Shown in pieces: positions 22,367-53,612 of a stretch of 64,000 bases of DNA (the first letter of the stretch is position 1; every line of letters begins with the position of its first letter). The notes below the pieces were generated by a model. The model was given only the letters and a program-made list of their open reading frames with translations, was not told the origin of the DNA and did no database searches. This DNA is from Thioclava sp. ES.031 (lineage in GTDB: Bacteria; Pseudomonadota; Alphaproteobacteria; Rhodobacterales; Rhodobacteraceae): positions 1,002,001-1,066,000 of the forward strand of contig NZ_PDJO01000001.1 in assembly GCF_002563775.1 (NCBI RefSeq). The letters are read 5' to 3'. A program made the position numbers and the translations under genes.

Positions 22367-23026
22367 GTGGAGTTGGTTCTGCGCCGCTCAGGCCGTGCGC
22401 GCAGGTTCTCTCTGCGGGTGTCGCGGGTGGACGGCCGCGTGGCGCTCACGATCCCGCGGGGTGCGTCCGAGCGCGAGGCTTTGGCCTTCGCGCGCTCGCA
22501 GACCGAATGGCTGCGCAAGACCCTCGGGGCGATTCCGCCCGCGCAGGCGGTGCGATTCGGGCAAGGCATCCCGTTCGAGGGGCAGATGCTGACATTGGAG
22601 CCCGCACGGTTGCGCAGCCCGAAGATCGACGGCGCGCGGCTCTTGGTGCCCGAAGACCCGGCACGGCTGGGGGTGCGGGTCGAGACCTTTTTCAAACACG
22701 CGGCCCGTCTGCGGCTGCATGCGGCCAGCACGCGCTATGCCTCCGAGATCGGGCGCGACTTTGCCAAGATCACGATTCGCGATACGCGCTCGCGCTGGGG
22801 TTCGTGCAGCTCCACCGGGGCGCTTTCCTATAGCTGGCGGCTGATCATGGCGCCGCCGGAGGTGCTCGACTACGTCGCGGCCCATGAGGTCGCGCATCTC
22901 GAGGAGATGAATCACTCGCCCGCCTTCTGGCGCGTCGTCGAGGCCCTGCGCCCGAGCTTCAAGACAGAGCGCGCCTGGCTCAAGCGCGAAGGCTCTGCGT
23001 TGCATGCGATCCGGTTTCGAGATTGA
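22367..23026 (+). CDS. YgjP-like (DUF45) metal-dependent hydrolase
   Basis: This protein of about 219 residues has the SprT/WLM-type zinc site HEVAHLEEMNHSPAFW near residues 166-181. The two His and catalytic Glu of HExxH and a downstream His are all present. The TRSRWGSCSSTGALSYSWRL stretch upstream is the family hallmark. It is a putative M48-related metalloprotease of unknown target. The start is uncertain: GTG at 22367 is listed, but conserved-looking residues (LSRTPPIPELPE) continue upstream in frame without an ATG, so a non-ATG start a little further upstream is possible. Confidence 0.85.
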   Translation: MELVLRRSGRARRFSLRVSRVDGRVALTIPRGASEREALAFARSQTEWLRKTLGAIPPAQAVRFGQGIPFEGQMLTLEPARLRSPKIDGARLLVPEDPARLGVRVETFFKHAARLRLHAASTRYASEIGRDFAKITIRDTRSRWGSCSSTGALSYSWRLIMAPPEVLDYVAAHEVAHLEEMNHSPAFWRVVEALRPSFKTERAWLKREGSALHAIRFRD

Positions 23027-23040
23027 CCCCGGCTGCTAAC

Positions 23041-23048
23041 GTGATCAC
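23041..23048. promoter_or_regulatory. GTGATCAC palindrome at the GntR gene
   Basis: The palindrome GTGATCAC (context AACGTGATCACAAAA) ends nine bases before the GntR regulator's ATG. The same core occurs in tandem upstream of sucC and sdhC. The position is suited to autorepression. A neighbouring ribosome binding site is not obvious. Confidence 0.6.
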
Positions 23049-23057
23049 AAAAAGCGC

Positions 23058-23714
23058 ATGACCACGATTTCCACACGCCCCATCGAGACCGCCGCCCATG
23101 ATCGGCTTTACCGCGCCTTGCGCCAGCAGATCATGGTGGGGGAGTTGCTGCCGGGCACCGCGCTGACGCTGCGCGGCTTAGGCAAGCAATACGGTGTCTC
23201 CATGACCCCCGCGCGCGAGGCGCTGCGGCGGTTGGTGGCGGAAGGGGCGCTGACGCTGTCGAGTTCGGGCCGCGTCGCCACGCCGGAACTGTCGAACGAG
23301 CGGATCGAGGAGCTGGCGGCGCTGCGCGCACTGATCGAGCCGGAGCTGTCGGCCCGCGCCCTGCCGCGCGCCCACCTCGCGCTGATCGACCGTCTCGGCG
23401 CGATCAACGTCGCCAATGCCGAGGCTGTCGCGAAACAGGATGCGGTCGGCTACATCCGCACCAATCTCGAATTCCACCGTACGCTCTATCTGCGCGCGCA
23501 GGCGCCCGCGATGCTCGCGGTGATCGAAACCGTCTGGCTGCAGCTGGGGCCGACGATGCGCGCGGTCTACACCAAGCTGCAGCGCAACGAACCGCCGCGC
23601 CACCACCGGATGATTCTCTCGGCGCTGCGTGCGGGCGACGAACCGGCGCTTCGATTGGCCGTGCGCACCGATGTGACCCAGGGTTTGCGTCACCTGGCCC
23701 AGCGTGGCTGGTAA
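23058..23714 (+). CDS. GntR-family transcriptional regulator (FCD subfamily)
   Basis: This 218-residue repressor-type protein has an N-terminal winged helix (residues about 12-78, with SMTPAREALRRLVAEGALTLS as recognition helix and wing) and a C-terminal all-helical FCD ligand-binding domain (about 85-215). FCD domains bind organic acids through metal-coordinating His residues; NLEFHRTLYLRA and the C-terminal HHRMILSALRAGD region provide candidates. A GTGATCAC palindrome just before the start links it to identical motifs at the sucCDAB and sdh operons. I infer control of TCA genes, as described for AkgR in Rhodobacter sphaeroides, but orthology is unverified. Confidence 0.88.
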   Translation: MTTISTRPIETAAHDRLYRALRQQIMVGELLPGTALTLRGLGKQYGVSMTPAREALRRLVAEGALTLSSSGRVATPELSNERIEELAALRALIEPELSARALPRAHLALIDRLGAINVANAEAVAKQDAVGYIRTNLEFHRTLYLRAQAPAMLAVIETVWLQLGPTMRAVYTKLQRNEPPRHHRMILSALRAGDEPALRLAVRTDVTQGLRHLAQRGW

Positions 23715-30270: not shown

Positions 30271-31659
30271 TCAGGCGTGGATCGCGCCGTCGCCGCAGGC
30301 GAGCGCGGCTTCGCGCACGGCTTCGGAGAAGGTCGGGTGGGCGTGGCAGGTCAGCGCCACGTCCTGCGCCGAGGCGCCGAATTCCATCGCCACGCAGATT
30401 TCGTGGATCAGGTCGCCCGCGCCGGGGCCGATGATGTGGCAGCCGAGGATGCGGTCGGTTTCCTTATCCGCGATCAGCTTCACGAAGCCGTCCGACTGGA
30501 ACACCGCCTTGGCGCGGCCATTGCCCATGAAGGAGAACTTGCCGACCTTGTAGGCGCGACCTTCCTGCTTGAGCGCCTCTTCGGTCTGGCCCACCGAGGC
30601 GACTTCCGGGGTGGTGTAGATCACGCTCGGGATCACCTCGTAGTTCACGTGACCATGCTTGCCCGCGATGACTTCGGCGACGGCCATGCCTTCGTCCTCG
30701 GCCTTGTGGGCGAGCATCGGGCCGGTGACCGCATCACCGATCGCGTAGATGCCTTTCGCGGAGGTCTGCCAATGCGCGTCAGTCTTCACCTGACCGCGCG
30801 GCAGCATCTCGACGCCCACGCTCTCAAGGCCCAGACCATCGGTATAGGGCTTGCGGCCGGTCGCGACGAGAACGGTCTCGGCTTCGATCGAGGCGTTGCT
30901 CTCATCCTTGCGCAGCTGGTAGTTCACCGTGGCCTTGCCGTTCTTCACGTCGACGCCCTGAACGGCGGCGCCCATGACGAATTTCAGGCCCTGCTTGGAC
31001 AGGATTTTCTGGAAGTTCTTGGAGACCTCGCCATCCATGCCGGGGGTGATCGCGTCGAGATATTCCACGACGGTCACATCCGCGCCGAGACGGGCATAGA
31101 CCGAGCCCATTTCCAGACCGATGACGCCCGCGCCGATGACGACCATCGATTTCGGGATCTTGTTGAGCGACAGCGCGCCGGTCGAGGTCACGACGGTTTT
31201 CTCGTCGATCTCGATGCCCGGCAGCGAGGAGGGCTCGGAGCCGGTGGCGATCACGATGCTCTTGGCGTTGTGGACGTCCTCGCCCACTTTCACCTTGCCG
31301 GCTTCCGGGATCGAACCCCAGCCCTTGAGCCAGTCGATCTTGTTCTTCTTGAACAGGAACTCGATGCCCTTGGTGTTGCCGTCGATGACTTCCTGCTTGT
31401 AGGTCAGCATCTGCTTCCAGTCGACCGAGGGCGATTTGCCCTTCAGGCCCATCTTGGCGAAGTTATGCTCGGCTTCGTGCAGCTGATGCGTGGCATGCAG
31501 CAGCGCCTTGGAGGGGATGCAGCCCACGTTGAGGCAGGTGCCGCCGAGGCTGTCGCGGCCTTCGACACAGGCGGTTTTCAGGCCCAGCTGGGCGCAGCGG
31601 ATGGCGCAGACATAGCCGCCCGGGCCGCCGCCGATCACGATCACATCATAGTCAGCCAT
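30271..31659 (-). CDS. lpdA: Dihydrolipoyl dehydrogenase (E3)
   Basis: This 462-residue FAD flavoprotein reoxidises dihydrolipoamide on the 2-oxoglutarate dehydrogenase E2 subunit, producing NADH. The redox-active disulfide is C42/C47 in [13 protein letters not shown]. The FAD site [11 protein letters not shown] is near residue 10, the NAD site is [17 protein letters not shown], and the C-terminal His-Glu pair lies in CHAHPTFSE. It is the last gene of the sucCD-sucAB-lpd run on the minus strand and probably serves this complex. Confidence 0.96.
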
Positions 31660-31708
31660 TGTTCTTGCTCCTTGGGTTGGGGCGCGAGGGGGGCCTCGCG
31701 CCGGGAGG

Positions 31709-32101
31709 TCAGATCAGCGCGGCAATCGCCAGCGCCAGAATTGCGAAAAACGAAACGCTCCAGACATAGGAGCGCCACGGCACCCAGCCTTGCAGGTAGG
31801 CGGGAATGTAGAGGATGCGCGCTGCGAGGAAGATCCAGGCCAGCGCCGTGGTCAGCGCGGTCGTCTGCCCGGTGAGTCCCACGACCAGCGCGACGGGGGC
31901 GAAGAGGATCAGCCCCTCGAAGGAGTTGTTCATCGCGCGTTGCAGTCGGCCAAGCAGGGTCGAGATCTGCGGCGGCGTCTTGTCGCGCGGGGAGAGCGGG
32001 TAGCGCGGGCCCAGCTCGGTATTGGCCTTGATCGAATAGCCGACCATCAGCCCCAGATGGAGCAGAACGGCGAGGATCAGGACGGTGAGTTCGGGGGTCA
32101 T
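31709..32101 (-). CDS. MAPEG family membrane protein
   Basis: This 130-residue protein has four predicted membrane helices. It carries the MAPEG signature [21 protein letters not shown] (residues about 52-72), as in microsomal glutathione transferases and bacterial relatives. Enzymatic activity is uncertain. It lies between sucB and lpdA on the same strand, an arrangement that keeps it on the suc transcript unless the hairpin at 32122-32158 intervenes. ATG at 32101 gives the usual [15 protein letters not shown] start. It is distinct from the second MAPEG gene at 52.5 kb. Confidence 0.85.
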
Positions 32102-32121
32102 TCGGTCGCTCCCGGCGGAGA

Positions 32122-32176
32122 GGGGGGTCCGGAGGGCTGTCTGCCCCCCGGACCCCCCGAGGATATTTGGCAAGAG
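32122..32176 (+). repeat. Intergenic GAGGATATTT element (copy 2)
   Basis: A perfect 11-base stem GGGGGGTCCGG/CCGGACCCCCC (32122-32132, 32148-32158) is followed by GAGGATATTTGGCAAGAG. It matches the arrangement at 11137-11187 and sits between sucB and the MAPEG gene. Confidence 0.65.
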
Positions 32177-32212
32177 CGAAGGGGCGGGGCGGCCGCCTTC
32201 GTCCTAAGTCGC

Positions 32213-33745
32213 TTACAGATCCATCAGCAGACGGCGCGGATCTTCCAGCGCTTCCTTGACGCGCACGAGGAAGGTCACGGCGCCTTTGCCGTCGACGATG
32301 CGGTGGTCGTAGCTCAGCGCGAGATACATCATCGGCTTGATGACGATCTGGCCGTTCTCGACCATCGGACGCTCCTGAATCTTGTGCATGCCGAGGATAC
32401 CCGATTGCGGCGGGTTGAGGATCGGCGAGGACATCAGCGAGCCATAGACGCCGCCGTTCGAGATGGTAAACGACCCGCCCTGCATCTCGGCCATCGAGAG
32501 CTTGCCGTCACGGGCGCGGGTGCCCATCTCGGCGATCGTCTTCTCGATCGAGGCGAAGCTCATCTGGTCGGCATCGCGCACGACCGGCACGACGAGCCCG
32601 TTCGGGGTGCCCACGGCCACGCCCATGTGGACGTAGTTCTTATAGACCACCTCGTTGCCGTCGATCTCGGCGTTGACTTCCGGGACCTCTTTGAGCGCGT
32701 GGCAGCAGGCCTTCACGAAGAAGGACATGAAGCCGAGCTTCACGCCGTGCTTCTTGTTGAACAGGTCCTTGTACTCGTTGCGCAGGTTCATGACGCCCGA
32801 CATGTCCACCTCGTTATAGGTGGTCAGCATCGCGGCGGTGTTCTGCGAGTCCTTGAGGCGCTTGGCGATGGTCGCACGCAGGCGGGTCATCTTCACGCGC
32901 TCTTCGCGCGATGCGTCATCGGCGTTGACCGGGCCGCGCGGCGCCTGCGAGGGCGTCGAGGCGACGGAAACCGACGCCTGCTTCGGCGCGCTTTCGGCCT
33001 TGGCGACGTCTTCTTTCATGATCCGGCCGTCTTTGCCCGAACCCTGAACGGAGGCCGGGTCGATGCCCTTCTCGGCCATCAGCTTCTTGGCGGAGGGCGC
33101 ATCCTCGACATCCTTGCCGCCCTTGCCGCTGGCGGCGGGGGCTTCGGATTTGGCCTCTTCCTTCGCGGGGGCGCTGGCGGAAGCGCCACCGCTTTCGCCT
33201 TCGGCGATCACGGCGAGCTTGGCCGAGGCATCGACGGTCGCGCCTTCTTCGGCGACGATCTCCTTGAGAACGCCAGCCGCGGGAGACGGCACTTCGACGG
33301 AGACCTTGTCGGTTTCCAGCTCGCAGAGCATCTCGTCGGCCGCGACCGTGTCGCCGACCTTCTTGAACCACGTCGACACAGTTGCCTCGGTGACCGATTC
33401 ACCAAGGCTGGGCACCATCACGTCGGTCATTTTTCCCTCGTTCGATTGGGGCTGTTGGGCGGGTTTTTCCGCCGGTTTGTCATCTTTCTTCGGCGCGGGG
33501 CTGGCGCCAGCCTCTTCGATCGTCGCGAGCAGCGCATCGACGCCGACGGTCTCGCCTTCGGCGGCCACGATCTCGCCGAGCGTGCCGGCCGCGGGGCTCG
33601 GCACTTCGACGGTCACCTTGTCGGTTTCGAGCTCGCAGAGCATCTCATCTGCGGCCACCGTGTCGCCGGGCTTCTTGAACCAGGTGGCGACGGTGGCTTC
33701 CGTGACGCTCTCGCCGAGCGTGGGAACGCGGACTTCAGTGGACAT
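32213..33745 (-). CDS. sucB: 2-oxoglutarate dehydrogenase E2 (dihydrolipoyl succinyltransferase), two lipoyl domains
   Basis: This 510-residue core subunit of the 2-oxoglutarate dehydrogenase complex transfers succinyl groups to CoA. It has two tandem lipoyl domains with lipoylated Lys at K43 and K147, both in ELETDKV. Linkers, an E3-binding domain ([26 protein letters not shown], about 220-250) and the catalytic domain with [12 protein letters not shown] near the end follow. Enterobacterial SucB has one lipoyl domain (about 405 residues). The second domain begins with its own Met ([13 protein letters not shown]), suggesting a duplication. The gene starts 4 bp after the sucA stop. Confidence 0.96.
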
Positions 33746-33749
33746 CTAT

Positions 33750-36707
33750 TCAACCCTCCAGTGCATCGTTGACGAGCGCGTCCTGCTCGGCCTTGTGGCG
33801 GCTTGCCAGACCCGTCGCGGGCGAGGCGGAAGCTGCACGGCCTGCATAGCGCGCACGGGCATGTTTCGCGTCGATCTTGGCGAGGACCCATTCGATATAG
33901 GGCTCGACGAAGAACCAAGCGCCTTGGTTTTTCGGCTCCTCTTGGCACCAGACGATCTCGGCATTCTTGAAGCGGGTCAGCTCTTTGGTGACCGCCTGTG
34001 CGGGGAACGGGTAGAACTGTTCCAGACGCAGCAGGTAGACATCGTCCAGCCCGCGTTCGTCGCGCTGTGCCAGCAGGTCGTAATAGACCTTGCCCGAGCA
34101 CATCACGACGCGCTTGATCTTGTCGTCGGACTTCAGCTCCAGATCCGAATTGCCGTGCTGCGCGTCGTCCCACAGCACGCGGTGGAAGCTGGACCCGGTG
34201 GTGAAGTCTTCCGTGGTCGAGACCGCCTTGGGGTGACGCAGAAGCGATTTCGGCGTCATCAGGATCAGCGGCTTGCGGAAGTCGCGATGGATCTGGCGGC
34301 GCAGAATGTGGAAGTAGTTCGCCGGCGTCGTGCAGTTCGCAACGATCCAGTTATCTTCCGCCGACAGCTGCAGGAAGCGCTCCAGACGGGCCGAGCTGTG
34401 CTCGGGGCCCTGACCTTCGAAACCGTGCGGCAGCAGGCAGACGAGGCCCGACATGCGCAGCCATTTCCGCTCGCCCGAGTTGATGAACTGGTCGAACATG
34501 ATCTGCGCGCCGTTGGCGAAATCGCCGAACTGCGCTTCCCAGAGCGTCAGCGCCTTCGGTTCCGCCAGCGAGTAGCCGTATTCGAACCCGAGCACCGCAT
34601 ATTCGCTGAGCATCGAGTCGATCACCTCGTAGCGGGCCTGACCCTCACGAATGTTGTTCAGCGGGTAGTAGCGGTCTTCGTTGTCCTGATTGACCAGCGC
34701 CGAGTGGCGCTGCGAGAAGGTGCCGCGGGTGGCATCCTGACCCGACAGGCGCACCGGGTAGCCCTCGGTCAGGAGCGAGCCGAAGGCCAGTGCCTCGGCG
34801 GTCGCCCAGTCGAAGCCCTTGCCGGTCTCGAACATCTGCTTCTTGTTCTCGAGCAGACGCCCGACTGTCTTGTGCAGCGCGAATTTCTCGGGCGCGGTGA
34901 CGAGCGCCTTGCCGACCTCTTCGAAGGTCTCGGGCGCGATCGCGGTGGTGCCGCGCTCGTATTCGCTCTTTTCCTGCTCCATGCCGGACCAGCGACCGTC
35001 GAGCCAGTCCGCCTTGTTCGGCTTGAAGACCTTGCCGGCTTCGAACTCCTCGTTGAGATGCGACTGGAACGAGGCTTTCATATCCTCGATCTCGCCCTCG
35101 GGGATCAGGCCGTCAGCCACGAGACGCTCGGTGTAGAGCTGCAGCGTGGTTTTGTGGGTCTTGATCGACTTGTACATCACCGGGTTGGTGAACATCGGCT
35201 CGTCGCCTTCGTTGTGACCGAAGCGGCGGTAGCAGAAGATGTCGATGACCACGTCCTTGTGGAACTTCTGGCGGAACTCGGTCGCGACGCGGGCTGCGTG
35301 CACGACGGCTTCCGGATCGTCGCCGTTCACGTGGAAGATCGGGGCTTCCACCATCAGCGCGAGATCGGTCGGGTAGGGCGAGGTGCGCGAGAAGTGCGGC
35401 GCGGTCGTGAAGCCGATCTGGTTGTTCACGACGAGGTGGATCGTGCCGCCCGTACGGTGGCCGCGAATGCCCGAGAGCTGGAAGCACTCGGCCACGACGC
35501 CCTGACCGGCGAAGGCCGCATCGCCGTGCAGCAGCACCGAGACGACCTTGGAGCGGTCCGAACGGTCGGCCAGCTGGTCCTGCTTGGCGCGGACCTTGCC
35601 GAGTGCGACCGGGTTCACCGCCTCGAGGTGCGAGGGGTTCGCGGTCAGCGACAGGTGAACCTTGTTGCCGTCGAACTCACGGTCGGCGGAAGCGCCGAGG
35701 TGGTATTTCACGTCGCCGGAGCCGTCCACGTCCTCGGGCTTGAACGAGCCGCCCTGGAATTCGTGGAAAATCGCGCGGTAGGGCTTTTGCAGCACGTTGG
35801 CGAGGACCGAGAGACGACCGCGGTGGGGCATGCCGACCACGACCTCTTGCAGGCCGAGCTGACCGCCCCGCTTGATGATCTGCTCCATCGCGGGGATCAG
35901 AGCTTCGCCGCCGTCGAGGCCGAACCGCTTGGTGCCCATGTATTTGACGTGCAGGAACTTCTCGAACCCTTCCGCCTCGACGAGCTTGTTGAGGATCGCG
36001 CGGCGGCCGGTCTTGGTGAAGGTGATCTCCTTGCCGTAGCCTTCGATGCGCTCTTTCAGCCAGGCCGATTGCTCGGGATCGGAGATGTGCATGTATTGCA
36101 GCGCGAAGGTGCCGCAATAGGTGCGCTTCACGATATCCATGATCTGGCGCATCGAGGCGATCTCGAGGCCGAGCACGTTGTCGATGAAGATCGGGCGATC
36201 CATGTCGGCATCGGTGAAGCCGTAGCTCTTCGGATCGAGCTCCGGGTGCTGGCCGGTGTCGCGCATGTTCAGCGGGTCGAGATCGGCGGCGAGGTGGCCA
36301 CGGATACGGTAGGCGCGGATGATCATCAGCGCGCGGATCGAATCCAGCACGGCGCGCTTCACCGCGGCCTCATCGACCGGAACGCCAGCCTCGGCGGCCT
36401 TCTTCTTGATCTTGTCGCCAGCGGCCTTGCCCTCGGCAGGGGCGGCGGGCCATTCGCCGGTCAGCGCGGCGGTCAGGTCGTCGGCAGCCACCGGCGGCCA
36501 GTCGCGACGCTCCCAGCTTGCGCCTTCGGCGGATTTCTTCACGTCCTGATCGGGATCACCGAGCGAGGCGAAGAAGGCAGCCCAGGCGGTATCGACCGAA
36601 GACGGATCTTCGGCGAACTTGGCATAGAGCTGCTCGACATATTCGGCATTCGCGCCTTGCAGGAACTGCGAGGCATTGAACTGGTCGTTGGGGGATTGGT
36701 CGGTCAT
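33750..36707 (-). CDS. sucA: 2-oxoglutarate dehydrogenase E1
   Basis: This 985-residue thiamine-diphosphate enzyme decarboxylates 2-oxoglutarate and succinylates the lipoyl group of SucB. Seen are the N-terminal helper segment (LQGANAEYVEQLYAKF), HRGRLSVLANVLQKP, the GDAAFAGQG ThDP motif, a C-terminal transketolase-like domain with SQRHSAL and the QEEPKNQGAWFFVEP end. GTGAGG precedes the ATG at 36707, which I prefer to the GTG at 36714-36716. It is co-transcribed with sucB and lpd, and probably with upstream sucCD. Confidence 0.96.
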   Translation of the reverse strand: MTDQSPNDQFNASQFLQGANAEYVEQLYAKFAEDPSSVDTAWAAFFASLGDPDQDVKKSAEGASWERRDWPPVAADDLTAALTGEWPAAPAEGKAAGDKIKKKAAEAGVPVDEAAVKRAVLDSIRALMIIRAYRIRGHLAADLDPLNMRDTGQHPELDPKSYGFTDADMDRPIFIDNVLGLEIASMRQIMDIVKRTYCGTFALQYMHISDPEQSAWLKERIEGYGKEITFTKTGRRAILNKLVEAEGFEKFLHVKYMGTKRFGLDGGEALIPAMEQIIKRGGQLGLQEVVVGMPHRGRLSVLANVLQKPYRAIFHEFQGGSFKPEDVDGSGDVKYHLGASADREFDGNKVHLSLTANPSHLEAVNPVALGKVRAKQDQLADRSDRSKVVSVLLHGDAAFAGQGVVAECFQLSGIRGHRTGGTIHLVVNNQIGFTTAPHFSRTSPYPTDLALMVEAPIFHVNGDDPEAVVHAARVATEFRQKFHKDVVIDIFCYRRFGHNEGDEPMFTNPVMYKSIKTHKTTLQLYTERLVADGLIPEGEIEDMKASFQSHLNEEFEAGKVFKPNKADWLDGRWSGMEQEKSEYERGTTAIAPETFEEVGKALVTAPEKFALHKTVGRLLENKKQMFETGKGFDWATAEALAFGSLLTEGYPVRLSGQDATRGTFSQRHSALVNQDNEDRYYPLNNIREGQARYEVIDSMLSEYAVLGFEYGYSLAEPKALTLWEAQFGDFANGAQIMFDQFINSGERKWLRMSGLVCLLPHGFEGQGPEHSSARLERFLQLSAEDNWIVANCTTPANYFHILRRQIHRDFRKPLILMTPKSLLRHPKAVSTTEDFTTGSSFHRVLWDDAQHGNSDLELKSDDKIKRVVMCSGKVYYDLLAQRDERGLDDVYLLRLEQFYPFPAQAVTKELTRFKNAEIVWCQEEPKNQGAWFFVEPYIEWVLAKIDAKHARARYAGRAASASPATGLASRHKAEQDALVNDALEG

Positions 36708-36758
36708 TTTCCTCACCTTCGGTCGGTGAAACAGGGATCTGTGGAACTCGAACGTCTA

Positions 36759-37211
36759 TCAGCGGCCCATTGAACGGTTGGTTAAACGCTGGGCGCGCGT
36801 GGTGGCGGGGTCGCGCGGCGCGCAGAGGCTCTCGCGACGGATACAGGGGTGGAACGGGACATGATGTAGGGTCCTTTCCTTCGCGCGCGGGGCCATCACG
36901 GTTCCTTTGAAACCGGCACCTGTCGTCCCGGGCATATTGCCTTCTGGGTCAGTGATGTAGGTGCTGATGTCGGGACTTCCATGCAGGGCAGGGATGCGCG
37001 CGGACTGCATTGCGGCCGATGAGCGGATGGCCGCGACCGGAACGAGGCCGCCAGGGGCGGAATTTCCGGTGCGTTCGGAGGCGAGCCATGCATCGCTCGC
37101 GACGCGCTCAGCCGCAGAAAAAGACCGGCCCCCGTCGCTGCTTTCAAGCAGGGCGCATGCGACCGTCCCCGAAACGGGGAGGGAGGCGCGCCGTGCGATC
37201 CGCAGCGACAT
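36759..37211 (-). CDS. Doubtful small ORF between sucD and sucA
   Basis: This is a 150-codon frame in the 573-bp sucD-sucA spacer. An AAAGGA lies eight bases before its ATG, so translation is possible. The protein (MSLRIARRASLPVSGTV...) has no domain, membrane helix or motif I recognise, and its codon use is less regular than that of adjacent suc genes. It may be spurious, with the spacer acting as an mRNA leader for sucA. No other frame in the spacer looks better. Confidence 0.3.
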   Translation of the reverse strand: MSLRIARRASLPVSGTVACALLESSDGGRSFSAAERVASDAWLASERTGNSAPGGLVPVAAIRSSAAMQSARIPALHGSPDISTYITDPEGNMPGTTGAGFKGTVMAPRAKERTLHHVPFHPCIRRESLCAPRDPATTRAQRLTNRSMGR

Positions 37212-37280
37212 GGGTCCGGTCCTTTCCTTGGTCGGGATGCAGGGCCGCGTGCGCCGCGACCCTGCCAGTTTCGAGAGAGC

Positions 37281-38168
37281 TTATTCGCCCTTGATCGCTT
37301 TCATCACCGCTTCGCCCAGCGTAGCGGGGCTGTCAGCGACGACGATACCGGCCGACTTCATGGCCTCGATCTTGGATTCCGCATCACCTTTGCCGCCCGC
37401 GACGATCGCGCCGGCGTGGCCCATGCGGCGGCCGGGAGGGGCCGTGCGGCCAGCGATGAAGCCAGCGGTCGGCTTCCAGCGGCCTTTTTTCTTCTGCTCG
37501 GCGAGGAATTCCGCGGCTTCTTCTTCCGCCGAACCACCGATCTCACCGATCATGATGATCGATTCCGTCTCCGGATCGTCGAGGAACATATCGAGCACGT
37601 CGATATGCTCGGTGCCCTTGATCGGGTCACCGCCGATGCCGACGGCCGAGGACTGGCCCAGACCCATATCGGTGGTCTGCTTGACCGCCTCATAGGTCAG
37701 CGTGCCCGAGCGCGACACGACGCCGACCGAGCCACGCTTGTGGATGTGGCCGGGCATGATGCCGATCTTGCAGGCGTCGGGCGTGATGACACCGGGGCAG
37801 TTCGGGCCGATCAGACGCGACTTGGAGTCGATCAGCGCGCGCTTGACCTTCATCATGTCGAGGACCGGGATGCCTTCGGTGATGCAGACGATCAGCTCCA
37901 TTTCCGCGTCAATCGCTTCGAGGATCGAGTCAGCCGCGAAGGGCGGCGGAACGTAGATCACCGAGGCATTTGCTTCGGTCTTGGCTTTCGCCTCGTGGAC
38001 CGAGTTGAAGACCGGCAGGCCGAGATGCTCTTGGCCGCCTTTGCCGGGGGTCACGCCGCCGACCATCTTGGTGCCGTACGCGATTGCCTGCTCGGAGTGG
38101 AAGGTGCCCTGCGAGCCGGTGAAGCCCTGGCAGATGACCTTGGTGTTTTCGTTGACGAGAACTGCCAT
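37281..38168 (-). CDS. sucD: Succinyl-CoA synthetase alpha subunit
   Basis: The 295-residue alpha subunit interconverts succinyl-CoA and succinate with phosphorylation of ADP or GDP. The CoA-binding N-terminal part contains [19 protein letters not shown], and the phosphorylated His lies in [22 protein letters not shown] near residue 245. It follows sucC with a 5-bp gap and is translationally close to it. Confidence 0.97.
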
Positions 38169-38173
38169 GATTC

Positions 38174-39367
38174 TTAGCCTTTCACCGCTTTGACGATTTT
38201 TTCTGCGCCATCCGACAGGTTGTCGGCGGCGATGACGTTCAGGCCGGAATTCGCGATGATTTCCTTGCCTTTTTCGACGTTGGTGCCCTCGAGACGGACG
38301 ACCAGCGGCACTTCGAGGCCGACTTCCTTCACCGCAGCGATCACGCCTTCGGCGATGATGTCGCAGCGCATGATGCCGCCGAAGATGTTCACGAGGATCC
38401 CTTTGACGTTCTTGTCCGAGGTGATGATCTTGAACGCTTCGGTCACTTTCTCTTTCGTGGCGCCACCGCCAACGTCGAGGAAGTTCGCGGGCTCGGCGCC
38501 GTAGAGCTTGATGATGTCCATCGTGGCCATTGCGAGGCCAGCGCCGTTCACCATGCAGCCGATCTCACCGTCGAGCGCGATGTAGTTGAGGTCGTATTTC
38601 GACGCTTCGAGCTCTTTGCTGTCTTCTTCGGTCTCGTCGCGCAGCGCGGCGATGTCCGAGTGACGGTAGACGGCGTTGCCGTCGAAGCCGAGCTTGGCGT
38701 CGAGAACCTTCAGGTTGCCGTCGGTCATGACGATCAGCGGGTTGATCTCGAGCATCTCCATGTCCTTCTCGACGAAGGCTTGGTAGAGCTTGCCGAGAAG
38801 ACCGACCATCTGCTTCACCTGCGGGCCTTCGAGGCCGAGCGAGAAGGCGACGCGGCGGCCGTGGAACGGCTGGTAGCCGGTGGCCGGGTCGATCGAGAAG
38901 CTGAGGATTTTCTCGGGCGTGTTCGCCGCGACTTCCTCGATGTCCATGCCACCTTCGGTCGAGGAGACGATCGAGACGCGCGAGGTCACGCGGTCGACGA
39001 GCAGCGCGAGATACAGTTCGCGCTCGATGTCGGAGCCGTCTTCGATGTAGATGCGGTTGACCTGCTTGCCCGCCGGGCCGGTCTGGTGCGTCACGAGCGT
39101 CTTGCCGAGCATCTGCTTGGCGAGCGTTTCAGCCTCTTCGACCGATTTGGCGAGGCGGACACCGCCCTTTTCGCCGGCTTCGGCTTCCTTGAAGTGGCCC
39201 TTGCCGCGACCGCCGGCGTGGATCTGCGCCTTGACGACCCAGAGCGGACCATCGAGTTCGCTGGCTGCGGTCTTCGCTTCTTCGGCCTTGAGGACGACAC
39301 GGCCGTCCGAGACCGGTGCGCCATAGCTCTTGAGAAGCTGTTTGGCCTGATATTCGTGGATATTCAT
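38174..39367 (-). CDS. sucC: Succinyl-CoA synthetase beta subunit
   Basis: The 397-residue beta subunit contains the ATP-grasp nucleotide domain and the succinate site. It starts [19 protein letters not shown], and [14 protein letters not shown], the LEINPLIV metal-binding motif and [13 protein letters not shown] are canonical. ATG 39367 is fixed by this N terminus. It is the first gene of the sucCD-sucAB-lpd operon. Tandem GTGATCAC palindromes lie 111-140 bases upstream. Confidence 0.97.
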
Positions 39368-39477
39368 CCTTGGATACCCCATGCTGGTGCGATTTGAGGG
39401 GGTTCTAGGCTGTTAAGCGGGGCGGACAAACCGAAATCGCGACATTCTGCCCCACTCGCCCGGAAAAAGCGACATAC

Positions 39478-39507
39478 GTGATCACAGCGCGGAAAGGTGT
39501 GATCACA
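39478..39507. promoter_or_regulatory. Tandem GTGATCAC palindromes upstream of sucC
   Basis: Two perfect palindromes, GTGATCAC at 39478-39485 and TGTGATCACA at 39498-39507 (core 39499-39506), start exactly 21 bp apart, two helical turns. They lie upstream of sucC. The same pair with the same spacing precedes sdhC. Confidence 0.75.
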
Positions 39508-45861: not shown

Positions 45862-46065
45862 ATGCAGATTTACCGCCTTCTGACCGAGGACGACACCTCG
45901 GCCTTTTGCCACAAGGTGAGCCTCGCGCTCTCGAAAGGCTGGGCGCTGCATGGCGATCCGCAATATGCCTTCGATCAGGCGAAGGGCGTGATGCGCTGTG
46001 CGCAGGCCGTGACCAAAGAGATCGAGGGGGAGTATCACCCCGACATGAAGCTGGGAGAGCAATGA
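45862..46065 (+). CDS. DUF1737 domain-containing small protein
   Basis: This 67-residue protein matches DUF1737 in length and pattern (MQIYRLLTEDDTSAFCHKVSLALSKGWALHGDPQY). Function is unknown. It lies between NnrU and mch genes, and its stop codon overlaps the mch start (ATGATG region), showing translational coupling. Confidence 0.85.
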   Translation: MQIYRLLTEDDTSAFCHKVSLALSKGWALHGDPQYAFDQAKGVMRCAQAVTKEIEGEYHPDMKLGEQ

Positions 46066-47099
46066 TGGGCAAGACCAATCCGGGCCGTTTCTTCGAGGAT
46101 TACAAGCTGGGCGACGTGATCCGTCACGCCGTCCCGCGCACCGTGGCGGAAGGGGAGCGCGCGCTCTATCACGCGCTCTATCCTGCGCGCCATGCGCTCT
46201 ATTCCTCGGACGAATTCGCGGCGGCCTGCGGATTGGAAGGCTCGCCGATCGACGATCTGATCGCCTTCCACGTGGTGTTCGGCAAGACCGTGCCGGATGT
46301 CTCGCTCAATGCGGTGGCCAATCTCGGCTATGCGGAAGGGCGCTGGCTGAAGCCGGTCTATCCGGGCGACACGCTGCGCTCGGAATCCGAAGTGATCGGG
46401 GTCAAGCAGAACTCAAACGGCAAGTCGGGCGTGGTCTATGTCCGCACCCGCGGGCTGAACCAGGTGGGCGAGACCGTGCTGGAATATGTCCGCTGGGTGA
46501 TGGTGCGCAAAGGCGATCTGGATGCGCCTGCGCCCGAGACCGTGCTGCCCGATCTGGCATCGGTCGTGGCGCCTGCGGATCTGGTGGTTCCCGATGGGCT
46601 GAGCTTCGACGACTACGATTTCGATCTGGCGGGCGAGCCGCATCGCTGGGGTGATTACGAGATCGGCGAGAAGATCGACCATGTGGACGGCGTCACCATC
46701 GAGGAAGCCGAGCACATGATCGCCACGCGCCTGTGGCAGAACACCGCCAAGGTGCATTTCGACGCGACCTTCCGCGAGGACGGCCAGCGCCTGATCTATG
46801 GCGGGCACGTGATCTCGATGGCGCGGGCGCTGTCGTTCAACGGCTTGGCTAACGCGCAGATGATCGTGGCGCTCAATGGCGGGGCGCATGCCAATCCCTG
46901 CTTCTCGGGCGATACGGTTAAGGCATGGTCGGAAGTGCTCGACAAGGCCGAGACCGGCGCGCCCGGCGTGGGCGCGATCCGTCTGCGTCTGGTCGCCGTG
47001 AAGCAGGGCGCGCCCGAGTTCGCCTATAAGGGAGAAGACGGCAAATACCTGCCCGAGGTCCTGCTCGATCTCGACTACTGGGCACTGATGCCGATCTGA
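46065..47099 (+). CDS. mch: Mesaconyl-C1-CoA hydratase (MaoC-like)
   Basis: This 344-residue double-hotdog hydratase converts between mesaconyl-C1-CoA and beta-methylmalyl-CoA in the ethylmalonyl-CoA pathway. It begins MGKTNPGRFFEDYKLGD, typical of Mch, with two MaoC-like halves (about 5-170 and 190-340). The second half contains YGGHVISMARALSFNGLANAQ. I place the start at ATG 46065, seven bases after GGAG; an ATG three bases earlier is equally in frame. The Mch-Mcl2 pairing supports an ethylmalonyl-CoA pathway in this organism. Confidence 0.9.
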   Translation: MGKTNPGRFFEDYKLGDVIRHAVPRTVAEGERALYHALYPARHALYSSDEFAAACGLEGSPIDDLIAFHVVFGKTVPDVSLNAVANLGYAEGRWLKPVYPGDTLRSESEVIGVKQNSNGKSGVVYVRTRGLNQVGETVLEYVRWVMVRKGDLDAPAPETVLPDLASVVAPADLVVPDGLSFDDYDFDLAGEPHRWGDYEIGEKIDHVDGVTIEEAEHMIATRLWQNTAKVHFDATFREDGQRLIYGGHVISMARALSFNGLANAQMIVALNGGAHANPCFSGDTVKAWSEVLDKAETGAPGVGAIRLRLVAVKQGAPEFAYKGEDGKYLPEVLLDLDYWALMPI

Positions 47100-47151: not shown

Positions 47152-47182
47152 TGTGATCACGCACAGAATTTATGTGATCACA
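47152..47182. promoter_or_regulatory. Tandem TGTGATCAC palindromes upstream of sdhC
   Basis: TGTGATCAC at 47152-47160 and TGTGATCACA at 47173-47182 have identical GTGATCAC cores starting 21 bp apart (47153 and 47174). They lie about 175 bases before sdhC. Same motif and spacing as upstream of sucC. Confidence 0.75.
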
Positions 47183-47354
47183 AAGCGAATTTTTCGCCGT
47201 TCTTTATGCGCAAATGACAGGTTTTCAACCTTGCCCCCCGTGACTTGGGAGAATTTTGCGCTAGTAAAAGAGCCAATTCCGGCCAGCTCCGCGCCAGCGC
47301 GTGCCTCTTCCAGAGGCCGACGAGAGCGCCGAGCCCAGCGAAAAGGGACCGATC

Positions 47355-47744
47355 ATGGCTGAAGCGAAACAGGTTGAGCGTCCGCTTTCCCCGCACCTTC
47401 AAATTTACCGCCCGCAGATGACGTCTTTCTCGTCGATCATGACGCGGATCACCGGCAACGGCATCATCGTCGGCGTGCTGCTGCTCGTCTGGTGGCTTCT
47501 CGCCGCCGCGACCAGCCCCGACTACTTCAACTTCGTGAACGCGATCGCGACCTCGTGGTTCGGCGATCTCGTCTTCACCCTGTCGTTGCTGGGCGTTTGG
47601 TATCACTACCTCGCCGGCATCCGGCACCTCATCTTCGATGCGGGTAAATACATGGACATCAAATCCGCCGAGATGCTCGGCTGGATCTGCACCATCGGTT
47701 CGGTCGTGCTGACCGTGCTGACCCTCATCATCATCCAATTCTGA
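47355..47744 (+). CDS. sdhC: Succinate dehydrogenase cytochrome b556 subunit
   Basis: This 129-residue membrane anchor of complex II has three helices and the family N terminus ERPLSPHLQIYRPQMTSFSSIMTRITG. The conserved haem-ligand His lies in VWYHYLAGIRHLIFDAG near residue 84. ATG 47355 follows AAAGGGACC. It is the first gene of sdhCDA-(glycosyltransferase)-sdhB. Confidence 0.96.
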   Translation: MAEAKQVERPLSPHLQIYRPQMTSFSSIMTRITGNGIIVGVLLLVWWLLAAATSPDYFNFVNAIATSWFGDLVFTLSLLGVWYHYLAGIRHLIFDAGKYMDIKSAEMLGWICTIGSVVLTVLTLIIIQF

Positions 47745-47755
47745 CGGAGGCCCTC

Positions 47756-48148
47756 ATGCGTTACCTCACCGACCGCAAGCGCGCCGTGGGCAAGGGCGCC
47801 TCGGGCACCGGCCCCGAGCATCACTGGTGGATGTCGGCCTCGGCCGTGGCTCTCGCCTTCATGATCCCGACCTGGCTCTATATCGTCGGCACCACGCTCG
47901 GCGCCGATCAGCAGACCGTGATCACGACCTTCTCGAAGCCCTTCCCGGCCATCCTGACCGCGCTGGTCGTGATCGTCGGCATGCGCCACTTCGCGAAGGG
48001 CACTGAGATCTGGATCGAGGACTACATCCACGGCACCGCCGCAAAGGCGACCAAGATCGCGATGCATTCGCTGGCTTACGTGATCATGGCGACCGCACTC
48101 TATGCACTCGGCAAGATGGTCTTCATCGGCCTTCTGCTGGGCAACTGA
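47756..48148 (+). CDS. sdhD: Succinate dehydrogenase membrane anchor subunit
   Basis: This 130-residue complex II membrane anchor has three predicted helices. The start [33 protein letters not shown] is characteristic of alphaproteobacterial SdhD, and WIEDYIHG near residue 84 belongs to the quinone-site region. It lies 11 bases after sdhC and 13 before sdhA. An internal GTGATCAC at 47918 is coding sequence. Confidence 0.95.
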
Positions 48149-48161
48149 ACGGGACGAGATA

Positions 48162-49967
48162 ATGGCTGCTTACGAATACGAAACGCATAATTACGACGTG
48201 GTCGTGGTCGGCGCCGGTGGCTCGGGTCTTCGCGCCACGCTCGGCATGGCCGAACAGGGCCTGCGCACCGCCTGCGTGACCAAGGTCTTCCCGACCCGCT
48301 CGCACACGGTCGCCGCACAGGGCGGCATCGCCGCCAGCTTGGGCAACATGGGCCCGGACAGCTGGCAGTGGCACATGTACGACACGATCAAGGGCTCGGA
48401 CTGGCTCGGCGATAACGACGCGATGGAATACCTCGCGCGCCACGCCCCCAAAGCCGTCTACGAGCTCGAGCACTACGGCGTGCCGTTCTCGCGCACCGAA
48501 GAGGGCAAGATCTACCAGCGTCCCTTCGGCGGCCACACCACCGAATACGGTGAAGGCCCGCCCGTGCAGCGGACCTGTGCCGCCGCGGACCGCACCGGTC
48601 ACGCGATCCTGCACACGCTCTACGGTCAGTCGCTGAAGAACAACGCAGAGTTCTACATCGAATATTTCGCGATCGACCTGATCATGTCCGATGACGGGCA
48701 GTGTCAGGGCGTCGTCTGCTGGAAGCTCGACGACGGCACCATGCACGTTTTCAACGCGAAGATGGTTGTGCTCGCGACCGGCGGTTACGGCCGCGCCTAC
48801 TTCTCGGCCACCTCGGCCCATACCTGCACCGGCGACGGTGGCGGCATGGTCGCGCGGGCCGGTCTCGCACTGCAGGACATGGAATTCGTGCAGTTCCACC
48901 CGACCGGCATCTACGGCTCGGGCTGCCTGATCACCGAAGGCGCGCGCGGCGAGGGTGGTTACCTGACCAACTCCGAAGGCGAGCGCTTCATGGAACGCTA
49001 CGCGCCGACCTATAAGGATCTGGCATCGCGCGACGTGGTGTCTCGCTGCATGACCATGGAGATCCGCGAAGGCCGCGGCGTGGGCGAGCACAAGGACCAC
49101 ATCTTCCTCAACCTCAGCCACCTTCCGCCGGAAGCTTTGGCCGAGCGTCTGCCGGGGATCTCGGAATCGGCGAAGATTTTCGCCGGCGTCGACGTCACGA
49201 AAGAGCCGATCCCGGTTCTGCCGACCGTGCACTACAACATGGGCGGCATTCCGACGAACTACCACGGCGAGGTCATCAACCCGAAAGAGGGCGACCCCGA
49301 TGCGATCGTGCCCGGCCTGATGGCCGTGGGCGAGGCGGGTTCGGCGTCTGTGCACGGTGCCAACCGTCTGGGTTCGAACTCGCTGATCGACCTCGTGGTC
49401 TTCGGCCGCGCCGCCGCGATCCGCGCCGGTGAGGTCGTCGATCCGAACAGCTCCAACCCGGATATCCCGAAAGCCAAGATCGACGCGATCTTCGAGCGCT
49501 TCGACAAAGTGCGCTACGCCGATGGCGGCACGCCGACGGCTCAGCTGCGCGACGAGATGCAGCGCACGATGCAGGCGGATGCGGCGGTGTTCCGCACCGA
49601 CAAGACGCTGGCCGAGGGTGTCGAGAAGATGAAGGCGGTCGCCGCGAAGCTCGACGATCTCAAGGTCACCGACCGCTCGCTGATCTGGAACTCGGACCTG
49701 ATGGAAACGCTGGAACTCGAGAACCTGATGCCGAACGCGCTGGCGACCATCGTCGGGGCCGAGGCGCGCAAGGAAAGCCGCGGGGCGCACGCGCACGAGG
49801 ACTATCCCGATCGCGACGACACCGAATGGCGCAAGCACTCGATCATGCATGTGGAAGGCGCGAACGTCGATCTGACCTTCCGCCCGGTCCACATGGACCC
49901 GCTGACCCCCGAGGATCAGGGCGGGATCGAGATCAAGAAGATCGCGCCGAAGAAGCGGGTCTACTGA
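48162..49967 (+). CDS. sdhA: Succinate dehydrogenase flavoprotein subunit
   Basis: This 601-residue subunit holds covalent FAD and oxidises succinate to fumarate. The dinucleotide site is [13 protein letters not shown], the flavinylation His is H48 in [10 protein letters not shown], and the active-site region [21 protein letters not shown] is near 245-265. A C-terminal KxxR tail ([10 protein letters not shown]) is typical. ATG 48162 gives the expected N terminus. Confidence 0.97.
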
Positions 49968-50000
49968 TGCGTCGCTCCGGTGAAATGCCGGAGCGGCCGC

Positions 50001-50014
50001 CCCGCCTCGGCGGG
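50001..50014 (+). promoter_or_regulatory. Hairpin overlapping a ribosome binding site in the sdh operon
   Basis: A perfect six-base stem CCCGCC/GGCGGG with a two-base loop overlaps the first half of the Shine-Dalgarno GGGAGG (50012-50017) for the gene at 50025. It could reduce its translation relative to sdhA and sdhB. No T run follows, so it is not a terminator. Confidence 0.4.
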
Positions 50015-50024
50015 AGGCTTTCGC

Positions 50025-51242
50025 ATGGCTGAAGTCAACTACCCGCCTCGGATCAATGTGCTTCTTCCGTGTAGTCGCCCCAGCAAGGGGCGCTTCTGGG
50101 GTGACCATTACTTTGGTCAATCTCTGGCGCGAGCGTTGAGAGACCTCGGTGCCGAAGTTTGGGTCGGCTATCGCGGGAAAGCGGTTCATATGCCGCATCT
50201 GCGTCGCGGTATCGATTTGGTTATCCGTGGGAAGCGCGGGCATTCAAGCTTGTGGCGGTCGCAATACCTCTGGGTCATTTCGCAACATGAGCGTATAAGT
50301 GACGCTGATCTGCGGCGAGCGCGTCATGTGTTTTCTGCGTCGAGTTCCTATGCAGAGGAACTGCAAGGGCGTGGGATCAGTGCAAGCTGGCTACCACAAT
50401 GTACGGACCGGTATGTGTTCTCACCTGACCATGCCCGAGCGGACCTCGCTCGCGAGGTTATTTCGGTTGGTAATCTTCGCGGCGCTTACCGGCGTGAGAT
50501 CGTCTCGGCATGTATTGCTGACGGGCTCCCGCTCAAAATCTGGGGCATGAATTGGAAGGGCGCGGTCCCCGACGAGAATCTCGGCGGCAGGCATATCCCG
50601 AATTCTGAACTTGGGGCCTACTACGCCTCGGCAAAGGTTGTCCTCAACGACCACGAGCCGCAAATGGCACGCGGACATTTCGCCTCCAACAGGGTATATG
50701 ATGTTCTCGCTTCGGGAGCGACCCTCGTAACCGATTGTATCGACGGCATTCCGGAAGACCTGCGTCGGCATGTGTATGGATATGTCGGCGCCGAGAGCGC
50801 ACCCGTGGCCGTTCGGGAAGCTCTGGAGGCACCGCGTGGATCGAACGAGATCGCCGAACACGTGCTTCAAAACCACAGTTTCCATAATCGCGCCATGCAG
50901 ATATTGCAGACTGTAGCTCCTACTTTCGCTGCAAGTGTGCCCTTCAAGGGTGTCGTCTCGAAGTTACCCGTAGCGACGGCTTGCCTTAGCATGATGGCGC
51001 TTGCGGCCTGCGGACCGATCCCAGTCGAACAGGCCGAAGCTCAATGTTACGCTCGATATGCCCCGAAATCGCCGGTGTCCGGCGAGGCCGGGATGGGCGT
51101 TACCAATGACGGCTTTCGTTCGAATCTGAAAGTCGAACTCAATGTCGGCACCTACGTTCAGGGCGATCCATCATCCGCCTATGACACATGTGTCTATAGA
51201 AAATCTGGTCGGATGCCTACGCGTCCGCTCTATTCGTACTGA
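50025..51242 (+). CDS. Glycosyltransferase with in-frame lipoprotein-like tail, inserted between sdhA and sdhB
   Basis: The frame gives 405 residues from ATG 50025, which has a strong Shine-Dalgarno (GGGAGG) seven bases upstream. Residues about 1-300 resemble a CgeB-like/Glyco_trans_1_2 glycosyltransferase: RPSKGRFWGDHYFGQSL near the N terminus and LNDHEPQMARGHFASNRVYDVLASGA near residues 207-232. Without a stop, the frame enters a hydrophobic segment with lipobox LAAC (about residue 329) and a tail ending SGRMPTRPLYSY. Base composition is clearly lower in G+C than sdhA or sdhB. I infer foreign DNA joined to a small lipoprotein gene. Function and cellular location are unknown. Confidence 0.7.
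   Translation: MAEVNYPPRINVLLPCSRPSKGRFWGDHYFGQSLARALRDLGAEVWVGYRGKAVHMPHLRRGIDLVIRGKRGHSSLWRSQYLWVISQHERISDADLRRARHVFSASSSYAEELQGRGISASWLPQCTDRYVFSPDHARADLAREVISVGNLRGAYRREIVSACIADGLPLKIWGMNWKGAVPDENLGGRHIPNSELGAYYASAKVVLNDHEPQMARGHFASNRVYDVLASGATLVTDCIDGIPEDLRRHVYGYVGAESAPVAVREALEAPRGSNEIAEHVLQNHSFHNRAMQILQTVAPTFAASVPFKGVVSKLPVATACLSMMALAACGPIPVEQAEAQCYARYAPKSPVSGEAGMGVTNDGFRSNLKVELNVGTYVQGDPSSAYDTCVYRKSGRMPTRPLYSY
50937..51242 (+). other. Possible separate lipoprotein gene inside the fused frame
   Basis: If translation starts at the in-frame GTG 50937, a 101-residue lipoprotein results: a basic N-terminus (PFKGVVSKLP), a hydrophobic core and the lipobox LAAC with Cys at residue 25. The mature tail is GVTNDGFRSNLKVELNVG...DTCVYRKSGRMPTRPLY. 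From memory, a small lipoprotein of this kind sits between sdhA and sdhB in relatives. No clear ribosome binding site precedes the GTG, so fusion, reinitiation or relic are all possible. Confidence 0.4.
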
Positions 51243-51257
51243 CGAAAGGGACATCTC

Positions 51258-52034
51258 ATGGTTCAGTTCACGCTTCCGAAGAATTCCAAGATCCGCGTCG
51301 GCAAGACCTGGCCGAAGCCGGATGGCAAGAATATCCGCAAGTTCCAGATCTATCGCTGGGACCCGGATACCGGGGAGAACCCGCGTCTCGACACCTATTT
51401 CATTGATATGGATAAGTGCGGGCCGATGGTTCTCGACGCGCTCTTGAAGATCAAGAACGAGATCGACCCGACGCTGACCTTCCGCCGCTCCTGCCGCGAA
51501 GGCATCTGTGGCTCCTGTGCGATGAACATCGACGGGATCAACACGCTGGCCTGTATCTACGGCCTCGACGAGATCAAGGGCGACGTGAAGATCTACCCGC
51601 TGCCGCACATGCCGGTGGTGAAAGACCTTATCCCCGACCTGACCATGTTCTACGCCCAGCACGCGTCGATCATGCCGTGGCTCGAGACCAAGACGAACCG
51701 TCCCGAGAAGGAATGGCGTCAGTCTATCGAAGACCGCAAGAAGCTCGACGGTCTGTATGAGTGCGTCATGTGCGCATCCTGCTCGACGTCCTGCCCGAGC
51801 TACTGGTGGAACGGCGACAAGTATCTCGGCCCGGCAGCGCTGCTGCACGCCTATCGCTGGATCATCGACTCGCGCGACGAAGCGACGGCAGAGCGTCTCG
51901 ATCAGCTCGAAGACCCCTTCAAGCTCTATCGCTGCCACACGATCATGAACTGCACCAAGACCTGCCCGAAAGGTCTGAACCCGGCGAAAGCGATCGCCGA
52001 GATCAAGCGGATGCAGGTCAACCGGGTCGTCTGA
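51258..52034 (+). CDS. sdhB: Succinate dehydrogenase iron-sulfur subunit
   Basis: This 258-residue subunit carries the three iron-sulfur clusters of complex II. The [2Fe-2S] ligands are in [21 protein letters not shown], the [4Fe-4S] ligands in [16 protein letters not shown], and the [3Fe-4S] ligands in [20 protein letters not shown] 51258 follows GAAAGGGAC. It is the last structural gene of the sdh operon, 15 bases after the inserted glycosyltransferase frame and followed by a strong terminator. Confidence 0.97.
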
Positions 52035-52471: not shown

Positions 52472-52921
52472 TCAGGTCAGCGCGACAACGAGCGTATGGG
52501 CCGCCATGTAGATCACGATCAGCGACCCGACCGTGTAGAAGGTCGCGCGGATTTCATGCGATTGCGCCGTCGCATAGGCCCAGAAATGCGCCAGCCGCGC
52601 GATGACAAACCCGTAGAGCAAGGTCTGTGCGAGCCACAGGGCAGGGTCGATCAGCACGAACAGGAACCCCGCGACCCAGAACGCGGGAATATTTTCCAAG
52701 TCGTTCCGATGCATGCGGCGCGAGCGGTCGACGTAGTCGTTGAGCGCCAATTGGGATGGATCCGGTGCCCGGTTGATGAGGCCGGGGCGCAGATCCTCGG
52801 GGCTGGCGAGCCCGGAATTGCTTTTCAGCATGCGATAGACGGTCATCCAGCCTTGGCCCATGACCTTGAGCACCATGAGCGCGGCCGCGATGACATAGGT
52901 CGCGAGAACGGGGTTTTGCAT
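52472..52921 (-). CDS. MAPEG family protein, divergent from TetR gene
   Basis: This 149-residue membrane protein has four predicted helices and a MAPEG-type core: DRSRRMHRNDLENIPAFWVAGFLFVL near residues 62-87 (the ExNxxE region) and ARLAHFWAYATAQSHEIRATFY towards the end. This is the mPGES-1/microsomal glutathione transferase-like pattern, so glutathione-dependent detoxification is plausible but unproven. ATG 52921 gives a clean membrane N terminus (MQNPVLATYVIAAAL). Two TetR-type operators lie in the 116-bp space before the divergent regulator gene. Confidence 0.88.
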   Translation of the reverse strand: MQNPVLATYVIAAALMVLKVMGQGWMTVYRMLKSNSGLASPEDLRPGLINRAPDPSQLALNDYVDRSRRMHRNDLENIPAFWVAGFLFVLIDPALWLAQTLLYGFVIARLAHFWAYATAQSHEIRATFYTVGSLIVIYMAAHTLVVALT

Positions 52922-52982
52922 GCTGAGGTGATCCAAGGTCCGCTCCTGATCTCTTGGCCATCCGAAGGGGTGGACCAATGTG

Positions 52983-53018
52983 CTTACCATTGGTAAGGAT
53001 AAACTTACCTTTGGTAAG
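52983..53018. promoter_or_regulatory. Twin TetR operators
   Basis: Two inverted repeats with identical arms, CTTACC-ATT-GGTAAG (52983-52997) and CTTACC-TTT-GGTAAG (53004-53018), start exactly 21 bp apart. They lie between the MAPEG and TetR genes, the second ending 18 bases before the TetR ATG. This is a typical dual site for cooperative binding by two TetR dimers. Confidence 0.85.
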
Positions 53019-53036
53019 TCGTCAAGGAATTCGAGC

Positions 53037-53612
53037 ATGGCCACGCCCAAGACAGACGCTGAGATCCTGAAAATCGCGCGCGACATTCTCGCGACCGAAG
53101 GGCTTGGTGGCGTGTCTTTCGATGCCATCGCCCGCAGGCTAGGACGTTCGAAACAGGCGGTGCTCTACTGGTATCCGACCAAACAGGCGCTTCTGGCGGC
53201 GATGTATCTACCCTGGCTCGAAGCGGAGACGGAAGCGGGTCTGGAGGCGTTGCGATCCGCCCCCGAGGGCAGGGCGGCTATCGTAGGATTCGTGCGGGCC
53301 ATCGCGGCGTTTCACTTCAGAGACCTCGACCGGTTCCGGGCGATGTATCTCATGCCGCAGACCCTGAAGCGGACCGGGCAGGACGCGACAGCCGCCGGGT
53401 TCGTGGCGCAAGTTCACCCCGTAACGGACCGCCTGTATTCCGCGCTTGCGGATCACTGCGGAGGCGACCGCCAGCAAGCCGTTGCGATCCATTCGGCGGT
53501 TCTGGGGATGGTGATGCTCTTCGGGCTTGCAGACAGTCTCGATGATCCACTGAAACATTCGCAAGACGAGATGACGGAGGCGCTGATATCGCGCCTCACC
53601 GGAGCGAAGTAA
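53037..53612 (+). CDS. TetR-family transcriptional regulator
   Basis: This 191-residue repressor has an N-terminal helix-turn-helix (residues about 8-52, GVSFDAIARRLGRSKQAVLYWYPTKQALL) and a helical ligand-binding domain (about 60-190). The ATG at 53037 gives the usual TetR N terminus. Two identical-arm palindromes just upstream are its probable operators, controlling itself and the divergent MAPEG gene. The ligand is unknown; a lipophilic or electrophilic compound handled by the MAPEG protein is a guess. Confidence 0.92.
   Translation: MATPKTDAEILKIARDILATEGLGGVSFDAIARRLGRSKQAVLYWYPTKQALLAAMYLPWLEAETEAGLEALRSAPEGRAAIVGFVRAIAAFHFRDLDRFRAMYLMPQTLKRTGQDATAAGFVAQVHPVTDRLYSALADHCGGDRQQAVAIHSAVLGMVMLFGLADSLDDPLKHSQDEMTEALISRLTGAK

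Follow-up and report, generated by a model that had tools for sequence, protein, structure and literature searches.

The GTGATCAC palindromes that stand in tandem, 21 bp apart, before the sdh and the suc operon of the DNA analysed here (a stretch of 64,000 nucleotides, hereafter the window) are very probably docking sites of AkgR, a GntR-family regulator whose gene lies nearby and is itself preceded by one copy of the word. We consider it highly likely that the two copies together form a composite operator of AkgR, the protein encoded at 23058–23714, which would activate the sdh and the suc-kgd operons and repress its own gene. Such a regulon is already known in kind, namely as the AkgR regulon; the strict spacing rule of the tandem pair may be new. 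The analysis marks the regulator gene and exact candidate operators of two main control points of the TCA cycle in a large bacterial family, and the spacing rule is strict enough for finding the regulon in other genomes of that family.

Sites, spacings and positions were computed from the sequence. Before sdhC, the distal core occupies 47153–47160 and, read directly, is an exact palindrome; the proximal core, equally exact, lies at 47174–47181, 21 bp from the distal one, and the pair, one of two in the genome, sits in the 255 bases that separate ORF 45906–47099 from the ATG of sdhC at 47355. The original prediction had described this pair in the sdhC promoter region, an identically spaced one before sucC and a lone copy at a GntR/FCD gene; all are exact in the sequence, the latter two starting at 39478 and 39499 and at 23041, respectively. 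The gene sucC is on the minus strand, its proximal core being 39478–39485 and its distal core 39499–39506; like all cores given here, they are exact matches to the word and are assigned no strand. The predicted target of the first pair comprises sdhC, sdhD, sdhA, a glycosyltransferase-like ORF and sdhB (47355–52034, plus strand), taken as an operon from gene order and strand; by the same reasoning sucC, sucD, a small ORF, sucA, sucB and an lpd-like gene (30271–39382, minus strand) form the likely suc-kgd target operon. The same-strand glycosyltransferase-like ORF between sdhA and sdhB (49980–51242; Pfam Glyco_trans_1_2) is unusual in an sdh operon, and the immediate upstream neighbour of the sdh promoter is a mesaconyl-CoA hydratase-like gene (45906–47099). 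The ORF behind sdhB (52472–53128) was considered as a regulator and ruled out; it encodes a MAPEG protein.

Conservation of the pair was computed for the host family, one genome per genus, and GTGATCAC pairs of 20–22 bp spacing occur in 106 of 120 genomes (two pairs in 84, one in 21, three in one, none in 14). The survey of pair loci in the family allowed spacings of 11–41 bp, and 72 loci, which do not include the two window pairs, were taken among the matches listed, three listed pairs with spacings of 18, 24 and 24 bp being left out. Among these listed matches, sucC or sdhC is the downstream gene at 67 of the 72 loci, 63 with a spacing of 21 bp and four with 20 bp (sucC: 34 at 21 bp and three at 20 bp; sdhC: 29 at 21 bp and one at 20 bp). 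This strongly supports the dedicated TCA-cycle regulon that had been proposed from the window, and the pair proves conserved when orthologous sdh and suc promoters are compared across the family. At one of the 72 listed loci (L150 of genome G042, 1501–1529) a 21-bp pair precedes fumC, the third TCA gene to be so placed, and in this one genus fumarase would thus belong to the regulon as well; four others, spaced by 12, 18, 27 and 31 bp (L115, L117, L118 and L139), include none at suc or sdh. In 33 named-record genomes, which were drawn from the 80 GntR-ortholog loci described below and hence all bear the ortholog, the pair is present in 33 of 33 and occurs twice in 31; in Rhodobacter capsulatus DSM 1710 and in R. 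viridis there is a single pair, before sucC. The 30 loci retrieved from these genomes (11 at sucC, 19 at sdhC) are all spaced by 21 bp. A class-wide search found the pair in 10 of 385 genomes, that is, in all five members of the host family (the window included) and in 5 of 380 others; the latter have one pair each, none of them at suc or sdh as far as reading frames were read by eye, and the pair therefore looks like a family trait. Of the pairs outside the family, L202 (992–1020, 21 bp) and L201 (1501–1530, 22 bp) stand beside TonB-receptor-like genes, and L202 is also adjoined by a divergent GntR/FCD-like gene, both as read by eye.

The position of the pairs relative to the promoters bears on how AkgR would act. 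A putative −35 box of sdhC, GTGACT (47240–47245, plus strand), begins 66 bp downstream of the first base of the proximal core and is followed, across a 16-bp spacer, by a putative −10 box TAGTAA (47262–47267, plus strand), an inferred choice, TAAAAG with a 19-bp spacer having been ranked above it by the scoring script. For sucC, the candidate −35 box TTGTCC (39424–39429, minus strand), weaker than that of sdh, lies 56 bp beyond the point where the proximal core begins and would go with a −10 box TAGAAC (39402–39407, minus strand), again across 16 bp. The promoter boxes are weak over the loci compared. Counted from the first base of the proximal core, 24 of 31 sdh promoters have GTGAC at 65–68 bp; of the seven without it at this distance, one has it at 78 bp, one turn further, and in six of the 31 it was not found in the range searched. 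Of 38 suc promoters, 14 have their best −35 box at 54–56 bp and the others have it at scattered positions, and in the 35 aligned suc promoters with a 21-bp pair two T columns at the −35 position are 83% conserved. With the transcription start set 12 bp after the first base of the −10 box, the centres of the cores lie about 97 and 118 bp before the predicted start in sdh and about 87 and 108 bp in suc; the distance from pair to start differs between the two by one helical turn. Between pair and promoter, A/T tracts recur about every 10 bp (10.2 in sdh, 9.6 in suc; p 0.0002 by column shuffles, p 0.0005 by rotations). Several sdh promoters also share a TTGCGCCAAAAAACCGCGCC-like block between the pair and the −35 box, and in several of the suc promoters the proximal core is followed by AAATGTCGCTTTTT; either is perhaps the site of another regulator.

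Each GTGATCAC palindrome would bind one AkgR dimer, and the two dimers, separated by about two helical turns, would sit on one side of the DNA; the near-invariant spacing of 20–21 bp suggests that they may bind cooperatively, as had been supposed. Some 87–118 bp before the predicted start, the pair is in a position typical of activators, which makes it most likely that AkgR activates sdh and suc; the operons for succinate dehydrogenase and for succinyl-CoA synthetase/2-oxoglutarate dehydrogenase would be activated jointly. That the pair is instead a repressor operator, by which AkgR would block sdh and suc, is unlikely, even though GntR/FCD regulators are, as is generally known, often repressors and the family is best known for these. 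The proximal cores start 66 and 56 bp upstream of the putative −35 boxes, gaps too large for simple steric blocking, and the accessible part of one report calls AkgR a transcriptional activator (PMC6365646). Should phasing matter, activation of sdh and suc by AkgR would offer a clean test case of a GntR/FCD protein activating transcription from a distance.

The proposed akgR (23058–23714, plus strand) is assigned from its domains and from its co-occurrence with the pair; its protein, of 218 aa, matches Pfam GntR (2.8e-15) and FCD (1.9e-16) and is 100% identical to one from Thioclava sp. JE_KL1, which makes Thioclava the very probable source of the genome. Seven of the named GntR families of NCBIfam were matched, none of them to the curated cut-off (the best, PRK11414, with 86 bits versus 225). 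With a profile of 26 orthologs, the best match among solved structures is McbR (YncC) of E. coli (PDB 4p9f, E 2.6e-24), a distant relative; to our knowledge, no TCA regulon is known for McbR. The residues N136, H140, H183 and D205 of the regulator are invariant in the 26 orthologs and may occupy the usual metal-ligand positions of FCD domains. The single GTGATCAC core of the gene (23041–23048) ends nine bases before its ATG and lies on the expected −10 region, downstream of a putative −35 box TTGACC (23023–23028, plus strand) which overlaps the TGA stop of ORF 22367–23026. An exact core is present upstream in 66 of 80 orthologous GntR loci, 14 of the 80 being without an exact site; TTGAC lies upstream in all 66 loci having the core, 17–20 bp before it in 62, and the core thus sits where the −10 region of the GntR gene would be expected. 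In the window the expected start falls on the ATG itself, so that the message may be leaderless. A single copy over the expected −10 region makes it most likely that AkgR represses its own gene; taken together, the arrangement suggests self-repression, which would act through this one site, and a leaderless message.

AkgR of Rhodobacter sphaeroides is, as we take it, RSP_0981, an identification reportedly made by Imam et al. 2015. In the accessible parts of the sources, RSP_0981 is of the GntR family, with the succinyl-CoA synthetase (sucCD), succinate dehydrogenase (sdh) and alpha-ketoglutarate dehydrogenase (kgd) genes as predicted targets (PMC4344238), and GTGATCAC is given as the AkgR motif (PMC6365646). 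As far as these parts go, the window resembles the AkgR regulon of R. sphaeroides in its GntR-family regulator, the window protein having the Pfam domains GntR and FCD, in the GTGATCAC word, here at sites predicted from sequence, and in the targets, with pairs before sucC and sdhC and with sucA and sucB following sucCD in the same orientation. What the window adds to these parts of the sources is the 21-bp tandem pair at both operons and the single site at the regulator gene. Whether the system is that of AkgR had been left open in the original prediction; the identity now finds support in the motif and the list of targets in print, within the parts of the sources accessible, and in co-occurrence with the GntR gene; the 80 GntR-ortholog loci contain no R. 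sphaeroides record. Since motif and targets agree, we class the system as the regulon of AkgR, seen now in another genus. The fixed architecture, with a tandem pair before sdh and suc but a single site at akgR, was not found in the literature searched, a coverage outside which the main AkgR study (Imam et al. 2015) lies; the accessible part of PMC11323563 names AkgR only in its reference list. Another regulator, PS417_07240 of Pseudomonas simiae, is 32% identical to AkgR and likewise has a conserved GTGATCAC site proposed as operator; it differs in belonging to a deoxyribose catabolism cluster and in having one site, 40–47 bases before the start codon (all from the accessible part of PMC6365646).

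Co-occurrence of pair and regulator was computed with the GntR gene as query, which finds a match at E 1e-30 in 107 of the 120 family genomes. Of these, 104 were counted as ortholog genomes; G054 (a 40% homolog), G019 (best E 5e-36) and G114 (1e-31) were left out, and G033 was counted despite an identity of 49%. The exact pair is present in 103 of the 104 ortholog genomes versus 3 of the 16 others (Fisher p 9e-14, a value that ignores ancestry). In G040, the sole ortholog genome lacking the exact pair, a one-mismatch version precedes sucC, and the three genomes with a pair and no counted ortholog are G096 (77% complete), G019 (91% complete) and G114 (320 contigs). In the 13 genomes that have neither pair nor ortholog, the search covered 400 bp upstream of the top-scoring sucC-like gene (G021 gave only a distant sucC homolog); the best pair of 20–22 bp has 6–7 mismatches in 16 positions in 12 of them and three in G017. 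Co-occurrence of pair and ortholog is partly shared ancestry; on a 51-row sucC tree, into which G096 was entered twice with unequal regulator labels, the pair label needs seven changes, well-supported branches force only three, and an independent-pairs test gives a median p of 0.5, which is not significant.

These distributions also speak to the idea that the pair is bound by a GntR/FCD paralog that recognises the same word and that the akgR site is coincidental, which we regard as quite improbable. A second homolog, of about 36–42% identity, does occur in many family genomes, and at L202, outside the family, a 21-bp GTGATCAC pair precedes a gene read as another GntR/FCD regulator; however, the presence of the pair follows the close ortholog, G054 with only its 40% homolog is without a pair, and it is the close ortholog whose own gene is preceded by the site (66 of 80 loci). 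With AkgR itself as the protein that binds the pairs, a more specific scheme may be put forward tentatively, its likelihood a little short of even. The mode of action of AkgR would be set by the number and position of its sites: the phased tandem pair, with the −35 box at 66–67 bp in sdh and at about 55–56 bp, one turn less, in suc, would be a family-wide activation platform for two dimers, with phased A/T tracts as its link to the promoter, and the single −10 site of a leaderless akgR promoter would serve autorepression, and the regulator and both pairs would be gained or lost as one module.

The half-sites of CRP are TGTGA and TCACA, six bases apart, and the same half-sites can be seen in the word studied here. 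That TGTGATCACA is a CRP/FNR-type site and not a GntR site is nevertheless very improbable; in GTGATCAC the half-sites abut and leave no six-base spacer, there is no tie to a CRP gene here, and the pair co-occurs with the GntR ortholog. The combination of TGTGATCACA with GntR was not found in the literature searched.

The genome of 4.02 Mb contains 127 single copies of GTGATCAC, about two per 64 kb, and two exact pairs at 21 bp, only before sdhC and sucC, versus 0.004 expected from random scatter of the 127 copies; pairs at two TCA operons are thus indeed hard to explain by chance, as had been argued, and with no other exact pair in the genome there is none at unrelated genes. If up to three mismatches are allowed, 21-bp pairs are found at 107 places, of which sdh and suc have none and all others at least two. 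An origin by chance or as a codon-usage artefact, which might appeal to the 127 single copies and to the three of nine window copies that lie inside genes, has a practically negligible probability and is already contradicted by the pair count of the genome, by the placement of the loci and by the conservation in 106 of 120 family genomes. The nine copies in the window compare with 0.73 expected from dinucleotide shuffles, a null too low for a genome that averages about two copies per 64 kb, and the case therefore rests on the pairs and not on single copies. A control with the reversed word was left unused, as the CTAG in that word probably makes it rare. The three copies inside genes are at 8358 (FMN-dehydrogenase gene), 19982 (histidine-kinase gene) and 47918 (sdhD); the copy at 4675 overlaps the 3′ end of ORF 4079–4678. 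The flank-extended word YGTGATCACRWA has six matches in the genome, one at the GntR gene, two at suc, two at sdh and one at 2,946,510; the two sdh matches are one core on both strands, and the distal sdh core does not fit. No exact copy stands 21 bp from the site at 2,946,510 (L241), and the site was kept out of the regulon; as read by eye, it lies near a urease accessory gene and a gene for a urea-type ABC transporter.
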